Of a stretch of DNA of 29,941 bases, positions 22,842-29,926 are shown piece after piece. The position numbers and the translations under genes are program-made. A model generated the notes under the pieces. That model was not told the DNA's origin, searched no databases, and saw nothing but the letters and a program-made list of their open reading frames with translations. This DNA is from a virus: positions 1 to 29,941 of the IMG/VR virus record IMGVR_UViG_3300028844_000646, one strand, 5' to 3'. Positions within the stretch are counted from its first letter, which is position 1, and every line of letters starts with the position of its first letter.

Positions 22842-22849
22842 TATTTATA
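22842..22849 (-). promoter_or_regulatory. T4-type late promoter for the giant fibre gene (distal)
   Basis: A second TATAAATA box on the minus strand. It overlaps the stop codon region of the 170-aa oxygenase gene and lies 21 bp upstream of the proximal box. Confidence 0.68.
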
Positions 22850-23357
22850 ACAATTTATTGAATGCAATATCATGTATTCCCATATGAAATACTATTCTTT
22901 CTTTACTAGGAGACTTTACTCCATGAGGTTTTTTAGTATTCAATACAACCATCGAATCATATAAAATACTATCATTTTCTATACCATCATCAAAATATAA
23001 TTCACCAGTATTTTCTGTTATAGGTATTACAAAAGAACACTTACTTTTTACGTCTGAATGTAAAGGTAACTCGCCACCTTCTTTTACTTTAAAGAAATTA
23101 CATCTAAATTCTTTAGGTCTTATATTAAACTCATTCCAAATACCTTTTATTAATCTTAATAATTTACGATCAAAATTGTGTATTTCCTGTACATAAAATT
23201 TATTCATATCTTCACCACCGGTAGCATTTTTTACATATTCTGAATATAATTGATTACTGTCTTCCCACTTGTTATTAAAATAATCGTTCCAAAAGTCTTT
23301 ATCTACCTTAAAATCTGTCTCAATAAAAAAGTTTTTATGCCATTTTTTATAAATCAT
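22845..23357 (-). CDS. Putative 2OG-Fe(II) oxygenase, 170 aa
   Basis: The C-terminal half has the cupin-type iron site of prolyl-4-hydroxylase-like or Asp-hydroxylase-like dioxygenases. His100 and Asp102 lie in LPLHSDVK, the distal His145 in KKPHGVK, and Arg154 in ERIVFHMG would hold 2-oxoglutarate. Strands CSFVIPIT and GELYFDD between them complete the pattern. The N-terminal 90 residues are helical and charged. Such enzymes hydroxylate protein side chains or small molecules; the substrate here is unknown. The start overlaps the upstream oxygenase gene by 11 bases with an AGGA site at good spacing. It is the last gene before the giant fibre gene. Confidence 0.7.
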   Translation of the reverse strand: MIYKKWHKNFFIETDFKVDKDFWNDYFNNKWEDSNQLYSEYVKNATGGEDMNKFYVQEIHNFDRKLLRLIKGIWNEFNIRPKEFRCNFFKVKEGGELPLHSDVKSKCSFVIPITENTGELYFDDGIENDSILYDSMVVLNTKKPHGVKSPSKERIVFHMGIHDIAFNKLL

Positions 23358-24147
23358 CTTGTCCTATAAGTGATACAATAATATGAGAACGAGCAGTGGT
23401 GCCTTTGTTCCAAGCACTATGTCGTAATCCTTGATTTAGAAACCAACAAGAACCTGGTTCCATAGTTTGATATACTTTCTTTCCATCAACAACACAATAG
23501 AAACCACAGTCTTTGTTTGTTGTTATAGGAATATGAAATCTTATAGAATAATCTGTATTATAATCTATGTGTTCGGCGATATTAGCGCCTGGTTCCATAA
23601 TCGCTATTCTTGCCCTTGTAGTTTCTGCCTTGAAAGATGTAATGACTTCTTCTAAATATGTTCCTTTTACCCAATCTTTTATTTTATTATAATGTCTTTC
23701 ATCTAATCTACTCTTAGGTATCTTCTTATCATAAACTCTATTTTCTGATTCAGGATTGTATTGACAAAGCGCTACTTGTTTATATGGCGAACCATTGACT
23801 TCATATCTTCCTTTATCATCTTTGACAATGTAGTTTTCAAAAGGTTTAACATAGTTTCTATAATCCCATGCCATTCGTTTATCATTTAGACCTTTTCTAA
23901 ATTCAGATTCTTCTACATCATTATTTTGTAAAAATTTATAGGCATCTTCAATTGTATCGAACTTTAATCCAAATGCTTTTTGTAATTTAGCAGTCTTACC
24001 TCCTACTAGATCACCATATCCATCTTTTGCTTTTAGATCATCTACTTCAACAGGCATTTGTTGAACTACTTTAATAATCTTTTCTACATCAAAAGTTTTA
24101 TCTAACTTTTTAAATGGTGGTAGTTCATGTCTCTTTTTTAATTTCAT
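23347..24147 (-). CDS. Putative Asp/Asn beta-hydroxylase-like 2OG oxygenase, 266 aa
   Basis: The ATG at 24147 is chosen because of an AAGGA site four bases before it; an upstream in-frame start at 24210 lies well inside the preceding gene. The C-terminal domain has the family pattern: ARIAIMEPGANIAEHIDYNT (His193, Asp195), a IRFHIPITTN strand, WFLNQGLRHSAWNKG (His243) and Arg253 in TARSHIIVSL. The product thus appears to have all iron and 2-oxoglutarate ligands. The N-terminal 150 residues include charged helices and KDGYGDLVGGKTAKLQ, possibly a substrate-binding part. Neighbouring genes encode other oxygenases. The substrate is unknown; virion protein or a small molecule are both possible. 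Confidence 0.72.
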   Translation of the reverse strand: MKLKKRHELPPFKKLDKTFDVEKIIKVVQQMPVEVDDLKAKDGYGDLVGGKTAKLQKAFGLKFDTIEDAYKFLQNNDVEESEFRKGLNDKRMAWDYRNYVKPFENYIVKDDKGRYEVNGSPYKQVALCQYNPESENRVYDKKIPKSRLDERHYNKIKDWVKGTYLEEVITSFKAETTRARIAIMEPGANIAEHIDYNTDYSIRFHIPITTNKDCGFYCVVDGKKVYQTMEPGSCWFLNQGLRHSAWNKGTTARSHIIVSLIGQDDL

Positions 24148-24691
24148 ATGTTCCTTTATACTGCCAACAGTTTGGATTCTCTTTACGACATACGGCAACT
24201 TTATCATCACTAAATTGCCAATTTGTATTCGTCTTCTTTCCTATTTCTAAAAATAGTTTCTTCATATACAATCTATTTCTACATCTACTTATAAACGCCT
24301 TTGTATATCCTAAACTCTCTGATATCTTCAATTGATGTTTTATAGTTTCTACCAAATGAGGTCTAACTATATTTCTGCTAGGTCTTCTTAAATAATCATG
24401 TTCCCAATATCTATTTAATATTCTTACTTCACCTTTCTCATAAAATTCAGGTCTGTGCCATACTGAACTAAACCCTAGTATATTATCATCTTTTAATAAG
24501 ACAGTGATACACTCAAAGGCAAACCAATCAATAGATGTATAATCCACTTTTTTAAAATGACCTTGTTCTAAATCATCAAAAGATATTTCTTTTAATTTTT
24601 TTATTATATCAGTTCGTTCTTCAGGTATAAATGTTAATACATCACACTCTGATTTTACGCCATAATTACTTTGACCAGGTGACCACATCAT
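24125..24691 (-). CDS. Possible GNAT-like protein of the oxygenase cluster, about 188 aa
   Basis: No family can be assigned with certainty. The order helix-rich N-terminus, WFAFECITVLLKDDNILGFS, SSVWHRPEF, RILNRYWEHDYLRRPSRN, then a long helix (VETIKHQLKISESLGYTKAF) and ISRCRNRLYMKKLFLEI recalls a GNAT acyltransferase fold. There, a strand reporting on the substrate is followed by an acetyl-CoA-binding helix. A classical Q/RxxGxG/A motif is not obvious. The start is uncertain: ATG at 24691 or 24688 is favoured over 24718, which has no ribosome site. It overlaps the preceding oxygenase gene and the next one. Operon membership suggests that it works with the oxygenases. Confidence 0.45.
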   Translation of the reverse strand: MMWSPGQSNYGVKSECDVLTFIPEERTDIIKKLKEISFDDLEQGHFKKVDYTSIDWFAFECITVLLKDDNILGFSSVWHRPEFYEKGEVRILNRYWEHDYLRRPSRNIVRPHLVETIKHQLKISESLGYTKAFISRCRNRLYMKKLFLEIGKKTNTNWQFSDDKVAVCRKENPNCWQYKGTYEIKKET

Positions 24692-25244
24692 TATAAAACT
24701 CACTATTCTTTTTACCATGCACTAGTAAATGTATTCTTTCTTCATCTGAATTATTTTCAACATAATGTTCATAATGAATATTCAATACAACACTCATACC
24801 AGGCTTATACTTTAACTCTTTATTATTTAACATAAACTTATTACCATCAGGATATGTTATACTTATATTTAATGGTTCTAACCAATTTCGTTCAGGTATA
24901 TCGACATGCTTAGTAATATATCCTTTTGGTTTTATAACTAAAAATCTAACATCATCAATACGAGAATAAGGTAGAGACTCAACAAACTTAATTGTGTTTG
25001 AACATTTTTTACCTATATCTGTTACAAAAGGTTTCTCACCTTTCTTTCTATATTCCCAATGACTGTTTGTTTTGTCTGAACCAAATCCGTATAGTGTGAC
25101 TGCGTGCCAATCTTTGTGACCATCTTCAGGTCTATGTTCTATTAGACTATTTTTTATTTGGTTATATTCTTTTAATATTTCATTAGTCGGAACATCAAAT
25201 CCCATTTCAACCCACTCGACACTACTATTTCTATCAAATTGCAT
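24666..25244 (-). CDS. Putative Asp/Asn beta-hydroxylase-like oxygenase, about 192 aa
   Basis: The C-terminal half has an Asp-hydroxylase-like iron site. DVRFLVIKPKGYITKHVDIP carries His113 and Asp115. Then come LNISITYPDG and the distal histidine in NIHYEHYVENNS (His160), with Arg170 in ERIHLLVHG ten residues later. The same ten-residue spacing occurs in the 266-aa neighbour. The N-terminus has a DWHAVTLYGFG segment typical of such proteins. The ATG at 25244 lies one base after the desaturase stop. A TTG at 25265 with an AGGA site is a real alternative and would add seven residues. The substrate is unknown. Confidence 0.68.
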   Translation of the reverse strand: MQFDRNSSVEWVEMGFDVPTNEILKEYNQIKNSLIEHRPEDGHKDWHAVTLYGFGSDKTNSHWEYRKKGEKPFVTDIGKKCSNTIKFVESLPYSRIDDVRFLVIKPKGYITKHVDIPERNWLEPLNISITYPDGNKFMLNNKELKYKPGMSVVLNIHYEHYVENNSDEERIHLLVHGKKNSEFYNDVVTWSK

Positions 25245-25245
25245 A

Positions 25246-25875
25246 TTATATAAAATATTTTTCAACTACGTATCCTGAAATATCTCCTTTACTTAATCTA
25301 ATCTTTTTAGGATTATTGTGATGAACATTATGAGAACCTTCTCCAGCAGATAGAAAGTTTATAAACTTATTAGTTACTGCTGAACTACCTTTATGACCTA
25401 AGGCATTAAATATACCATAACTTACAAATCCTAATATCAATGGTGATAAAACAAATATAAAAAACACTTTAAAACTTATTAGTAAAGTTATAACTGCTGT
25501 TGTAATATGTAATTTTAACCAATGGTTATGAAAAAACATAACTCTAGGATTCTTAAATAAATCTCTCACATAAGGTCTATCTATTTTTTTGACTTTCCAG
25601 TTATTGAAAAGAACATTCCAAAAACCTTTGTGTGTAGGAGAGTGTGGATCTTTTGGTGTGTCTGAAAATCTATGATGTATTCTATGAGCACCTATCCAAC
25701 TTAATGGTGACCTTGAAAATGCTAACATTGCTAGAAACAATGAAACCACTTCAAATAGTTTAGATGTTTTAAATTGATTGTGAGCAAAGTGTCTATGAAG
25801 ACCTATGGATAGGCCGAACATAGCAATAACTTGATACCAGATGAATCCCATAATGAGCATTACGAAACTGGTCAT
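25246..25875 (-). CDS. Compact membrane fatty-acid desaturase
   Basis: A di-iron membrane desaturase. All three histidine boxes are present: HRHFAH (27-32), HRIHH (64-68) and HNVHH (182-186), plus NALGHK (157-162), the usual extra iron-ligand histidine. Hydrophobic segments at about 3-26, 41-56 and 122-158 fit a membrane protein with the active site facing the cytoplasm. At 209 residues it is shorter than most delta-9 acyl-lipid or acyl-CoA desaturases (about 260-320); the N-terminal membrane helix appears trimmed but every ligand remains. It would insert a double bond into host fatty acids. It sits six bases after the 98-aa gene and is flanked by oxygenase genes. Confidence 0.9.
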   Translation of the reverse strand: MTSFVMLIMGFIWYQVIAMFGLSIGLHRHFAHNQFKTSKLFEVVSLFLAMLAFSRSPLSWIGAHRIHHRFSDTPKDPHSPTHKGFWNVLFNNWKVKKIDRPYVRDLFKNPRVMFFHNHWLKLHITTAVITLLISFKVFFIFVLSPLILGFVSYGIFNALGHKGSSAVTNKFINFLSAGEGSHNVHHNNPKKIRLSKGDISGYVVEKYFI

Positions 25876-25881
25876 TTTTGA

Positions 25882-26178
25882 TTACTCTTGTTCTATAACT
25901 GTTGAGATATTGTTACTATCACAATATGTTTCTCTAGCATCAGCATTCGCATCTAAAGTGTTGTCTGCCAAGTATTCTGCATGATCATCAGAAGTATTAA
26001 AAGTTACAGTCATAGTTTTTTCTAACTGATTTTCTGAAATTTCATTGAAATTATAACTAATAATTTTACCAGCAGTTTTAAATTCTTCGATTTTTGTTAT
26101 TACTTCTGATTGATTAGAAGACCAAAAATCAACTGAAGTTGATGGTCTTGTTTGTATCAATTTGTATGTTATAGCCAT
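25882..26178 (-). CDS. Small hypothetical protein before the desaturase, 98 aa
   Basis: A 98-residue acidic protein opening MAITYKLIQTRPSTSVDFWS. It has an alpha/beta look: two beta segments (ITYKLIQTRP, KTMTVTFNTS) and helices with Asp/Ala-rich turns (NTLDANADARETYCDSN). I recognise no characterised family. The opening resembles, from memory, small conserved proteins of marine T4-like phages. A late promoter at 26197-26204 lies only 18 bases before the ATG and an AAGGAT site between them. It therefore starts a late unit containing the desaturase and the downstream oxygenases. Function unknown. Confidence 0.6.
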   Translation of the reverse strand: MAITYKLIQTRPSTSVDFWSSNQSEVITKIEEFKTAGKIISYNFNEISENQLEKTMTVTFNTSDDHAEYLADNTLDANADARETYCDSNNISTVIEQE

Positions 26179-26196: not shown

Positions 26197-26204
26197 TATT
26201 TATA
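26197..26204 (-). promoter_or_regulatory. T4-type late promoter within the oxygenase cluster
   Basis: An exact TATAAATA box on the minus strand, 18 bases before the 98-aa gene and next to the end of the 215-aa oxygenase gene. It splits the cluster into two late units. Confidence 0.75.
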
Positions 26205-26206
26205 CA

Positions 26207-26854
26207 TTATTTACATAGCATATTATTAAATACTGCTTTAATAGATTCTTCACAGCATTTTATATTCATAACTAACATTGTAGTATGTTTAATAGTAGGT
26301 TCATTATCTAATTGACTATCAAAAGAAAATATAGCATGTCTCTTGTTAGTATTTACGAAATATGTATATCCTTCATTAAAAATTAAAGGTTTATCCTCTA
26401 ACATAAAATATAGACTTGGAGGATTACATGTTCTTAATGGAACTAATAATCTCATAAACCTTTGCTCGGCAAATCTATAATTATCTATATGAGGAGGAAA
26501 ATAACCACCCCTATTAAAACTTAAAAAATGTGTTCTACACAACCAAGGTTTAAATGGATCCACTAGTTCCTGAACTTCTTTACTCTTATAATAAACATCT
26601 GTAAGTGTAGTAAAAGAGTCCTCATCATATTTTACATTTTCTTCTTTAGATAATTCATACAGACTATCTAAATCTTTTCCATTAATACTTCCATCTAAAC
26701 TTGTTATGCTAAGTCCATACCTTGGTATATTTTTTCTAGGATTGTATTGAGCAAACTGAAAATCTTTTATTTCTTCAAATAACTTATCTGTATTACAAGA
26801 TATTTTTAGAGGTATGAAATCTCCATATGTAAGTAATTGATTATAATTTATCAT
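26207..26854 (-). CDS. Putative 2OG-Fe(II)/Asp-hydroxylase-like oxygenase, 215 aa
   Basis: The iron site is visible as His122 and Asp124 in GGYFPPHIDNYR and the distal His173 in NTNKRHAIFSF. Between them is a strand (FMRLLVPLRT) and LYFMLEDKPLIFNEGYTYFV, as in Asp-hydroxylase-like and cyanophage-type 2OG oxygenases. The residue that would contact 2-oxoglutarate is less clear; Lys189 or His190 in TIKHTTMLVMN are candidates. The N-terminal half has LCRTHFLSFNRGG directly before the motif. The start overlaps the upstream oxygenase gene by 14 bases. The ribosome site is weak and translation is probably coupled. The substrate is unknown. Confidence 0.65.
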   Translation of the reverse strand: MINYNQLLTYGDFIPLKISCNTDKLFEEIKDFQFAQYNPRKNIPRYGLSITSLDGSINGKDLDSLYELSKEENVKYDEDSFTTLTDVYYKSKEVQELVDPFKPWLCRTHFLSFNRGGYFPPHIDNYRFAEQRFMRLLVPLRTCNPPSLYFMLEDKPLIFNEGYTYFVNTNKRHAIFSFDSQLDNEPTIKHTTMLVMNIKCCEESIKAVFNNMLCK

Positions 26855-27422
26855 TGATCCATTCTTTTTTTAGTTTAGGTGGTGTTACATTCATTGTAAA
26901 TAATTCGTTAGAATATTTATCTTCTCCAATCCAAGGCGCTCCTATACAAATTGTAAGTTTTTCTTCATTAGGAACTAACCCATGTGGATGGCCACCATTT
27001 AAAATATAAGTATTATACGTATTGGGTGCATAAACTTTATCACCATTTTCATCTAAAAAATATAAACTATCTAGTTTACCTGTCAAAGCAAGTCTTAATT
27101 TTTGATGAAACTCTGGTATCTCTATTTGCTGGCAATCTATATGTGTAGGAATATAACTACCTTTCTTTGTTTTTAAAATATGAATTTTACCCTCACTAGA
27201 CATAATAGGTTTTATCTTCTCTTTAAAAACTTTTATTAAGTGTGTGCAGGTATTACCTTCTTCCGTCCATTTAAAGTCTTTATCATATATACTTAATATT
27301 TCACAGTTTCTATATTCATTCCAATACCAACCACTTGAAATAGATTTGATTTCTTTGGTAATTAAATCTATATCTTCTTTTGTTATATTTAAATCTATTG
27401 CCTTGTATGTAAACACGCTCAT
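26841..27422 (-). CDS. Putative 2OG-Fe(II) oxygenase-like protein, 193 aa
   Basis: The iron motif is His94 and Asp96 in SYIPTHIDCQQ, with the distal His147 in NGGHPHGLV. A lysine (Lys155 in NEEKLTICIGA) stands where an arginine usually binds 2-oxoglutarate, so cofactor use is less certain. Strands LRLALTG and DSLYFLDENG lie between, as expected for the fold. The first 80 residues are helical and include GWYWNEYRN. This is the first gene of the minus-strand cluster. A late promoter box ends only five bases before its ATG and no ribosome site is present, so the message may be leaderless. Confidence 0.6.
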   Translation of the reverse strand: MSVFTYKAIDLNITKEDIDLITKEIKSISSGWYWNEYRNCEILSIYDKDFKWTEEGNTCTHLIKVFKEKIKPIMSSEGKIHILKTKKGSYIPTHIDCQQIEIPEFHQKLRLALTGKLDSLYFLDENGDKVYAPNTYNTYILNGGHPHGLVPNEEKLTICIGAPWIGEDKYSNELFTMNVTPPKLKKEWINDKL

Positions 27423-27495: not shown

Positions 27496-28365
27496 ATGAA
27501 TAAAGTAAATATAGTATGTACTAGTAAGCCTGGTGATGGTCTTTTAAGATATAGTTATGAACACTGTTGCGCCCTAAATTCTCTAGGTGTTGAAACACAA
27601 TTAATCATCATTCCCAATTCAAAACATACTAAAGAAGAATATATAAAATCTATTACAGATCAATATAAGACTTATCAAAATGTGATCTTTGATGATTACA
27701 CTCCTTCTAAAAATGAGATTACTTTAGTCTTAGGTAGAAGTATGGTCACTCTAGCGTATTTGGATAGAAGAAACTATACTGAAAATCAACTATTCACTTT
27801 ACACTTACTCTTTAGAGAAAAACTTATATCTGTGTATTCAGAAAACCATGTGGAACAATATCCTATGGCGTTAGAATACTTTACATCTAAAAGAGTTTAT
27901 GACCTATGTGATTTTGACGTATATCCTAATGGGGTTGGAACACAATACGAAAAGATAATTAACTTTGATGAATACAAACCTATAACAAATGATATACAAT
28001 ACAAATATTTATTTTTAGGAACAAACGAGATATACTATAAAGAGATAGAAAAACATATACACAAATATCCAGATCATGGTATTGTGACTTACAACGAGAA
28101 GTGGATTAATCCAAAGTTAAACAATCTGTTTGCGCCTATTGAAAACATACTAGGTAAATTTGAAACATATGTTTATACAAAACCAAATTTTGATCCAGCG
28201 CCTAGATTGTTTGTTGAGTTTAGATGGTTGAGTAAAAATGTAGATTATGTAAGAGATAAAAACATCAAAGACGGTGGTATGGTATATTGGAATAGACCTC
28301 AACCCACGAAAGAGATATATTTTAACAATATAAATATACTTGTTGAATTAATTAAAAAAATATGA
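27496..28365 (+). CDS. Putative glycosyltransferase-like protein, 289 aa
   Basis: Assigned with moderate confidence. The first strand and loop (VNIVCTSKPGDGLLRYSYEH) followed by LNSLGVETQLIII looks like the start of a GT-B Rossmann fold. NGVGTQYEKI near residue 148 lies in the middle. YLFLGTNEIYYKEIEKH starts a second domain. VYTKPNFDPAPRLFVEFRWL (about 229-248), then VRDKNIKDGGMVYWNR, resembles the C-terminal donor-binding region of such enzymes. No classical EX7E motif could be confirmed. It would transfer a sugar to an unknown acceptor such as a virion protein, DNA base or host glycan. It overlaps the nitroreductase gene by four bases (ATGA). AGAGG lies only two bases before the ATG. Confidence 0.5.
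   Translation: MNKVNIVCTSKPGDGLLRYSYEHCCALNSLGVETQLIIIPNSKHTKEEYIKSITDQYKTYQNVIFDDYTPSKNEITLVLGRSMVTLAYLDRRNYTENQLFTLHLLFREKLISVYSENHVEQYPMALEYFTSKRVYDLCDFDVYPNGVGTQYEKIINFDEYKPITNDIQYKYLFLGTNEIYYKEIEKHIHKYPDHGIVTYNEKWINPKLNNLFAPIENILGKFETYVYTKPNFDPAPRLFVEFRWLSKNVDYVRDKNIKDGGMVYWNRPQPTKEIYFNNINILVELIKKI
28329..28336 (+). promoter_or_regulatory. Possible internal late promoter before the nitroreductase
   Basis: An exact TATAAATA on the plus strand inside the end of the glycosyltransferase-like gene, 25 bases before the nitroreductase start. Spacing is right for a late promoter. Being in an A+T-rich coding sequence, it could be chance. Confidence 0.4.
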
Positions 28366-29078
28366 AAAAAGAATTAGAACATGCTGTAAATATAACTCAA
28401 AGAGCTCAAAGAAATTATGATTTAACTAAAAACATTCCAGATGATGATTTGAAAACTTTGATAAATGTTGCTATCAACTCACCCTCTAAACAAAACGAAA
28501 CACATTTCAAATTAAAAGTATTTACTGATAAAAAAATAATAGAAAAAATACACGAAACTACAAAAAGATTTTCTTTAGTTTCAGAAAAATACATAGATAA
28601 AATGTTTAAAGATAGTGAGAAGGGTTTTTTAAGTAATGATAAGTATAATGTAACCAATTCTCAAATCTTAGCTAATGTTGTTTTTGTATATTGTAAAGAC
28701 GAAGATAATATAAGAGGTGGCACACATAGATTTGCGAAAAAAGATGGAGCGAGTAAATTAGTTTTAGATACATTATTAGAACAAAAATCTTATTCAATGG
28801 GTATATCCACTGGACAATTAACATTATCAGCCGCAATGTTAGGTTATAGAACTGGAATTTGTTCGGCATTTGAAAGTGAGAAACTACAAGAAATAATATC
28901 ATCTGATACGGAACCTAAATTAATTGTAGGTATTGGTTATAATAATGAAAATATGGATAGAAGATTACACCCAACTTTGAAAAATAAAGATGTGCCTGAA
29001 GCATATAGAAACGGTGATGATGAAAGTAATTGGAGATTTCCTTCTTTCGAAAAAAATATAAAGGTAACAATAGATTAA
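28362..29078 (+). CDS. Nitroreductase-family flavoprotein
   Basis: An FMN-dependent oxidoreductase that uses NAD(P)H. The family signature is visible in order: R14AQR17NY near the N-terminus, INSPSKQNETHFKLKVF (about 38-54) for FMN binding, a long dimer helix, GISTGQLTLSAAMLGYRTGI (147-166) and PKLIVGIGYNNENMDRR (185-201). At 238 residues the length is usual. Substrates in this superfamily range from nitro compounds and quinones to flavin and halogenated tyrosine, so none is assigned. It overlaps the upstream gene by four bases and the downstream QueC-like gene by one base (TAATG). All three therefore belong to one message. In a phage it could supply reducing steps for nucleotide or glycan modification. 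Confidence 0.82.
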   Translation: MKKELEHAVNITQRAQRNYDLTKNIPDDDLKTLINVAINSPSKQNETHFKLKVFTDKKIIEKIHETTKRFSLVSEKYIDKMFKDSEKGFLSNDKYNVTNSQILANVVFVYCKDEDNIRGGTHRFAKKDGASKLVLDTLLEQKSYSMGISTGQLTLSAAMLGYRTGICSAFESEKLQEIISSDTEPKLIVGIGYNNENMDRRLHPTLKNKDVPEAYRNGDDESNWRFPSFEKNIKVTID

Positions 29079-29926
29079 TGATTTTAAAATACGGAAACCA
29101 AACAGTAGATTTTTATACTAAAATTCAATCTTTAATAGAGATATCTCCTTATAGAGATAAAGCGCTTAATGATGTTGATTATGATGATAACGGCATACCA
29201 AAACGTGTTGTAGTTTCGTTATCAGGTGGTTGTGATTCAGCCTCGTCTTTTTACTTAACAGCGAAACACTTTCCCGATATAGAAATATATCCGTTAACGT
29301 TAAGAGATCAAAATGCTCCTAAAGACGCTGATGCGGCCATTGAGATATCTAAATTTATGAAGAAACGTTTTCCTCACTCAAAGATTAATGATATAGAAGT
29401 TGGTTCATATAATGATTTAGATATAACAACTTATCATAGAGCACGACAAACAATTAAAAGTAAAGATGAATATAAAACTCTTAACGCAACACAAATGTCA
29501 AAAATTAATTCAATAGATGATCAAAACAATGCTTATATGAAGATGGTAGGTAAACCTTTGAGACTTGATGGTATGACTGCTAATCCACCTAAAGATGTTA
29601 GAATGAGTTTTGCTGATAGAATGAAAAAATATCACCCAACTAGAAACTTTGGACCTTTTGAAGTTGATAGAGTACAAGGAGAAATCAGACGTGATGTACA
29701 TAATAAACCAGAGTTAAAGTACAATGTATATAAACCTTTTCTAAATGTAAATAAAAGATTTGTTGCTGGTGTATTCAAAGAAAATAATTTAATGGACGAC
29801 TTATATCCTATAACGAGATCGTGTGTAGGTGGTGGTAGACAAACAAACAATTTCACGGAATGGTGTTGGCAGTGTTTCTGGTGTTATGAAAAAGATTGGG
29901 CATTTAATGAAGTATCTGATAGTTAG
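29078..29926 (+). CDS. QueC-like PP-loop ATPase (7-cyano-7-deazaguanine synthase-like)
   Basis: The ATG at 29078 overlaps the nitroreductase stop by one base and is preferred to an earlier in-frame start at 29030 inside that gene. VVVSLSGGCDSASSFYL (44-60) is a PP-loop; SGGCDS binds and adenylates the substrate. The C-terminus holds Cys249 in TRSCVGGGR and Cys263, Cys266, Cys269 in EWCWQCFWCYEKDWAF. This resembles the zinc site of QueC, which makes preQ0. The first gap is longer (13 residues instead of about eight). At 282 residues it is larger than QueC (about 225), with an insert around 115-200. preQ0 synthesis for tRNA or phage DNA modification is plausible; a different PP-loop amidation or thiolation cannot be excluded. 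Confidence 0.65.
   Translation: MILKYGNQTVDFYTKIQSLIEISPYRDKALNDVDYDDNGIPKRVVVSLSGGCDSASSFYLTAKHFPDIEIYPLTLRDQNAPKDADAAIEISKFMKKRFPHSKINDIEVGSYNDLDITTYHRARQTIKSKDEYKTLNATQMSKINSIDDQNNAYMKMVGKPLRLDGMTANPPKDVRMSFADRMKKYHPTRNFGPFEVDRVQGEIRRDVHNKPELKYNVYKPFLNVNKRFVAGVFKENNLMDDLYPITRSCVGGGRQTNNFTEWCWQCFWCYEKDWAFNEVSDS

Follow-up and report, generated by a model that had tools for sequence, protein, structure and literature searches.

Cyanophage desaturases, in the work of Roitman and colleagues, reportedly showed Delta9 activity on C16 chains. Viral desaturases described to date include these cyanophage enzymes (vFAD; Roitman, 2018, as cited in PMC11480375 and PMC7300359), those of sea-ice and cryopeg viruses, which are under purifying selection (PMC7300359), a stearoyl-CoA desaturase from a pelagimyophage (PMC7029224) and a pelagiphage-like scaffold that carries a desaturase along with haem genes (PMC11480375). 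The cyanophage, sea-ice/cryopeg and pelagimyophage enzymes have in common with the gene described here that they are virus-carried, have three histidine boxes and have been proposed to change the fluidity of the host membrane.

The gene (P0001) lies in the window, by which we mean the whole 29,941-nucleotide stretch analyzed, an IMG/VR record that is itself a 29.9-kb fragment. The window is T4-like in gene content and its terminase shares 76% identity with the one in Pelagibacter phage Mosig EXVC030M; judged by its sequence, the virus is a T4-like pelagimyophage, and its host is probably SAR11, a bacterium abundant in the ocean. Among 50,697 phage records the only clear relative of P0001 is Mosig_00080 of that same phage (MT647606.1, QOI69044.1), at 43.6% identity. 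The two proteins share the histidine boxes and a compact size (216 aa in Mosig), and both genes occupy the same place in a pelagimyophage genome, with a PF05118-type oxygenase on one side and the tail-fibre region on the other; in Mosig, however, no gene for a 98-aa protein separates the oxygenase from the desaturase, and the downstream genes (aminotransferase, FMN reductase and peroxiredoxin) are unlike those of the window. No cyanophage record matched P0001 in this search of phage records, and the vFAD enzymes were compared with it by description only.

We consider it likely (probability roughly 0.7) that the product of P0001 is a functional diiron acyl desaturase, membrane-bound and minimal in size, which belongs to the Delta9 (SCD/DesC) class and would be made late in infection. 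This reading rests on a full ligand set, SCD1-like segments from helix 2 onward, purifying selection, a late promoter and a phage-only clade.

Metal ligands and class of the desaturase

The initial annotation had placed a desaturase at 25246-25875 with four histidine motifs intact in only 209 residues; the coordinates prove exact, with the gene on the minus strand (ATG at 25875, stop at 25246) and many stops on the plus strand across the same interval, and the motifs are as stated (Table 1). The Pfam FA_desaturase profile (PF00487) matches the protein with an E value of 2.3e-12 and 47.7 bits (cut-off, 29.7), and since the match spans profile positions 10-225 of 253, the core of the domain is nearly complete despite the short length. 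Scoring above the curated cut-off and carrying all three histidine boxes, P0001 is a member of the FA_desaturase superfamily.

Table 1. Features of the window, in order of position.
Feature	Position	Strand	Basis or remark
TATAAATA sites	90, 770, 3899, 6504, 12046, 17550, 17570, 18177, 22821, 22842, 26197, 27428	(-)	
2OG-oxygenase-like (HxD...H)	22845..23357	(-)	clusters with PF05118 genes
Asp_Arg_Hydrox (PF05118) oxygenase	23347..24210	(-)	Pfam; matches beta-hydroxylase of known structure, 7v4f
197-aa protein, no family	24125..24718	(-)	conserved in cassette (cluster 2, 55 loci)
Asp_Arg_Hydrox (PF05118) oxygenase	24666..25265	(-)	Pfam; overlaps desaturase stop by 20 nt
Desaturase gene P0001, 209 aa	25246..25875	(-)	ORF read, Pfam match, SCD1 profile match
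Histidine box 3, HNVHH (H182, H185, H186)	25318..25332	(-)	three His invariant, 52 sequences
NALGH, the NxxxH site (N157, H161)	25393..25407	(-)	both invariant, 52 sequences
Histidine box 2, HRIHH (H64, H67, H68)	25672..25686	(-)	three His invariant, 52 sequences
Histidine box 1, HRHFAH (H27, H32)	25780..25797	(-)	sequence; H27 and H32 invariant, 52 sequences
98-aa protein, no Pfam match	25882..26178	(-)	directly upstream of desaturase, 6-nt gap
TATAAATA, predicted T4-type late promoter	26197..26204	(-)	19 nt before 98-aa gene
2OG-oxygenase-like (HxD...H), orthologue of Mosig_00081 (53%)	26207..26854	(-)	relatives match PF05118
2OG-oxygenase-like (HxD...H), cluster 14	26841..27422	(-)	motif and clustering only; no Pfam match
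Nitroreductase-family gene	28362..29078	(+)	
PP-loop ATPase resembling NAD synthase or QueC	29030..29926	(+)	follows nitroreductase-family gene

In the SCD1 structures, nine histidines hold the metals. When P0001 is aligned with SCD1, all nine, as well as the Asn of the NxxxH site, have counterparts, and across 52 aligned sequences with identities down to 35% the nine histidines and N157 are invariant, which is far beyond chance. The desaturase family profile matches mouse and human SCD1 (4ymk, 4zyo) at about 1e-14, from the second helix onward and with the boxes in register; SCD1 was the sole structural relative that the family-profile search found. P0001 thereby has the nine histidines, including that of the NxxxH site before box 3, which mark the Delta9 SCD/DesC class. 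The desaturase fold is known in other families to hydroxylate or to take other substrates, and the phage clade is divergent, its bacterial matches within the phage and plasmid collections being 24-36% identical; the fold and metal site might, then, serve a different kind of oxidation, such as hydroxylation or epoxidation, or a substrate other than a fatty acid. We think this unlikely, given a box pattern (HRxHH with DPH, NxxxH, EGxHxxHH) of the SCD/DesC type, the type of the sole structural relatives found.

Two features that looked informative about the substrate were set aside. SCD1 contacts CoA through residues that include an Arg-Asp before box 2, where P0001 has Gly62-Ala63; this difference is not decisive, since the Arg-Asp is missing also from bacterial relatives that carry an acyl-CoA desaturase annotation, and for the same reason we rejected the argument that a protein without the CoA contacts of SCD1 must use a lipid-bound substrate. 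Nor can acyl-chain length be read from Q15 and M19 at the end of the tunnel (Tyr104 and Ala108 in SCD1), since cyanobacterial DesC also has Met at 19. The cyanobacterial DesC-type enzymes (e.g., Aulosira desC1, Chroococcidiopsis) share the boxes with P0001 and are likewise without the SCD1-type Arg-Asp; they differ in being 280-300 aa long with a longer N-terminus, in being only ~30% identical to P0001 and in forming a separate clade.

A short N-terminus shared by the phage family

Enzymes of the Delta9 SCD/DesC class have a four-helix membrane domain in which two of the helices come ahead of box 1. This domain does not have its full counterpart in P0001, in which H27 is preceded by only 26 residues, room for one helix. 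Hydrophobic stretches span residues 1-27 and 119-160, with a weaker one near 35-61, and these segments correspond to SCD1 from its second helix onward; what the phage family lacks, relative to SCD1 and to nearly all bacterial relatives sampled, is the cytosolic N-terminal part and the first helix. Box 2 begins at about residue 58-64 in the phage family but no earlier than residue 88 in almost every cellular relative, leaving the region before it in P0001 some 30 or more residues shorter; the one bacterial exception, as short at its N-terminus, is a Kofleriaceae protein (L050, read from the first start codon).

Such a shortfall is what one would expect of a decayed, truncated and inactive remnant of a longer enzyme. 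We regard this as very improbable: the same length recurs throughout the clade, the complete reading frames of viral relatives are ~206-240 aa long with no internal stops, and every ligand is invariant. Pairwise dN/dS among the desaturases is 0.09-0.28, and hence the gene is under purifying selection. Compactness is a family-wide trait, not decay. The “truncated N-terminus” of the initial annotation was thus correct as to the missing first-helix region, but it is a feature of the whole clade rather than a defect of P0001.

Relatives and phylogeny

Scanning IMG/VR with P0001 gave 43 relatives at 57-88% identity, and an alignment-based scan gave at least 591 encoding stretches, of which the best 80 were retained as loci. 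The tree (52 phage-type and 28 cellular sequences, several of the latter on long branches) was built without named SAR11 or Prochlorococcus desaturases. Within that sampling, the comparison with cyanobacterial and other bacterial desaturases that the initial annotation had proposed gives a phage-only clade: the phage proteins fall on one side of a branch with support of 95/93, present in 92% of bootstrap trees, apart from the cyanobacterial DesC-type and alphaproteobacterial proteins. In 385 alphaproteobacterial genomes the good matches lie in longer frames (at least 239 residues), except for a phage-like contig.

Matches in a Gammaproteobacteria MAG (L048, NZZP01000019.1) and a Rhodobacteraceae bin (L049, FZLS01000007.1) were rejected as signs of a bacterial origin; both contigs carry the phage cassette and are probably phage DNA binned with bacteria. 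Conversely, two “Acinetobacter phage” records were rejected as phage relatives, their neighbor genes pointing to bacterial DNA; in one of them (L003, CAKLQH020000002.1, Acinetobacter phage MD-2021a) the desaturase is surrounded by btuB, baeR, baeS and ydiU, and the record is probably bacterial chromosome. Viral contigs of a second kind (L040-L046, L054, L055, L072) have the desaturase before the oxygenase; a gene for an 814-aa protein stands upstream, and downstream come endolysin-like genes and others. These contigs possibly belong to a different phage group that shares the desaturase gene.

Predicted late transcription

The gene for the 98-aa protein and the desaturase gene form a two-gene unit preceded by TATAAATA, a motif found 14 times in the window (5.7 expected). 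Of the minus-strand copies, 11 are followed in the window by a gene on that strand, and each of these 11 lies 6-85 nt ahead of the start codon, the spacing that T4-type late promoters would have. The kilobase upstream of the desaturase holds the motif on the desaturase strand in 19 of 38 non-redundant loci (the window and Mosig included), and on the opposite strand in 3 of 38. The motif ahead of the unit, 19 nt before its first gene, and the same-strand bias across loci together support late transcription, and the desaturase is probably expressed late, as the initial annotation had supposed. Homologues of the 98-aa protein were found in 39 loci, immediately before the desaturase (position -1) in 30. 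In some loci its gene is on the opposite strand, beside tail-fibre genes.

The neighboring oxygenases

The initial annotation had further described an oxygenase operon, which describes the locus correctly (between 22845 and 27422, five 2OG-oxygenase-like genes share one strand), and had seen in it a hint of a shared oxidative pathway, a suggestion that our results do not carry beyond co-location. A related possibility is that the desaturase and the adjacent oxygenases jointly tailor an envelope lipid, the one desaturating and the others hydroxylating the acyl chains of lipid A or ornithine lipid, and so remodel the cell surface, for example against superinfection. Several observations are in keeping with it: a 2OG oxygenase lies within two genes of the desaturase in 41 of 44 non-redundant loci; oxygenases make up 81 of the 241 genes within three positions of the desaturase vs. 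17 of the 272 at 6-15 positions (the loci being related to one another and the Fisher value only indicative); the upstream oxygenase is orthologous between the window and Mosig (53%); and the oxygenases just downstream across loci match LpxO weakly (9 of 16, best 3e-7) and, also weakly, OlsC. The block, moreover, fits the variable “host recognition cluster” of pelagimyophages (PMC7029224).

Against these stands the reciprocal search, in which a desaturase was nearby in only 9 of the 35 loci that hold relatives of the upstream oxygenase (a lower bound, some flanks being short): all 6 with at least 60% identity to that oxygenase, none of the 5 contigs at 56-57% and few of those under 50%. The oxygenases can therefore do without a desaturase, and an obligatory pair was rejected. 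The window oxygenases themselves score 15-18 bits against the LpxO and OlsC profiles, whose cut-offs are 450-500, and one of them resembles soluble beta-hydroxylases; on these scores they cannot be firmly assigned to the lipid hydroxylases. Joint tailoring of an envelope lipid seems to us, on balance, doubtful. Its extension to the lineage as a whole, in which phage-only minimal desaturases (without the first helix) and adjacent 2-oxoglutarate oxygenases would make up a late envelope-lipid tailoring system that changes the SAR11 surface during infection, is best treated as speculation with a slim chance of being correct.

Proposed role and significance

If P0001 is the late, Delta9-class desaturase that we favor, it would sit in the host inner membrane, where its nine histidines would hold two metal ions. 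Electrons would come from a [2Fe-2S] ferredoxin, either that of the host or one encoded by the phage, as may be the case in two relatives: of the 8 records searched, Mosig and a 109-kb relative have a gene for such a ferredoxin, and none was found in the other 6, most of these 6 being fragments. The enzyme would then activate O2 and introduce a cis double bond into acyl chains of the host, most likely ones bound in lipids, so that the membrane would become more unsaturated ahead of assembly and lysis. Both the Delta9 position and the substrate are guessed from the class to which the protein is assigned; altered membrane fluidity is a reasonable, if putative, effect.

The desaturase of the window is thus real and probably active; it falls in a widespread, phage-only branch of a family that is already well known, and is not a new type of system. 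Viral desaturases, too, are known already, and what is added here is modest: a minimal lineage confined to phages, and its constant position next to oxygenases. The results indicate that membrane desaturation is a common, selected function in pelagimyophage-type genomes. P0001 offers a small, intact enzyme with which to test how marine phages alter the membranes of their hosts, and its lineage, the shortest compared here, could reveal whether SCD-type desaturases can do without their first membrane helix.
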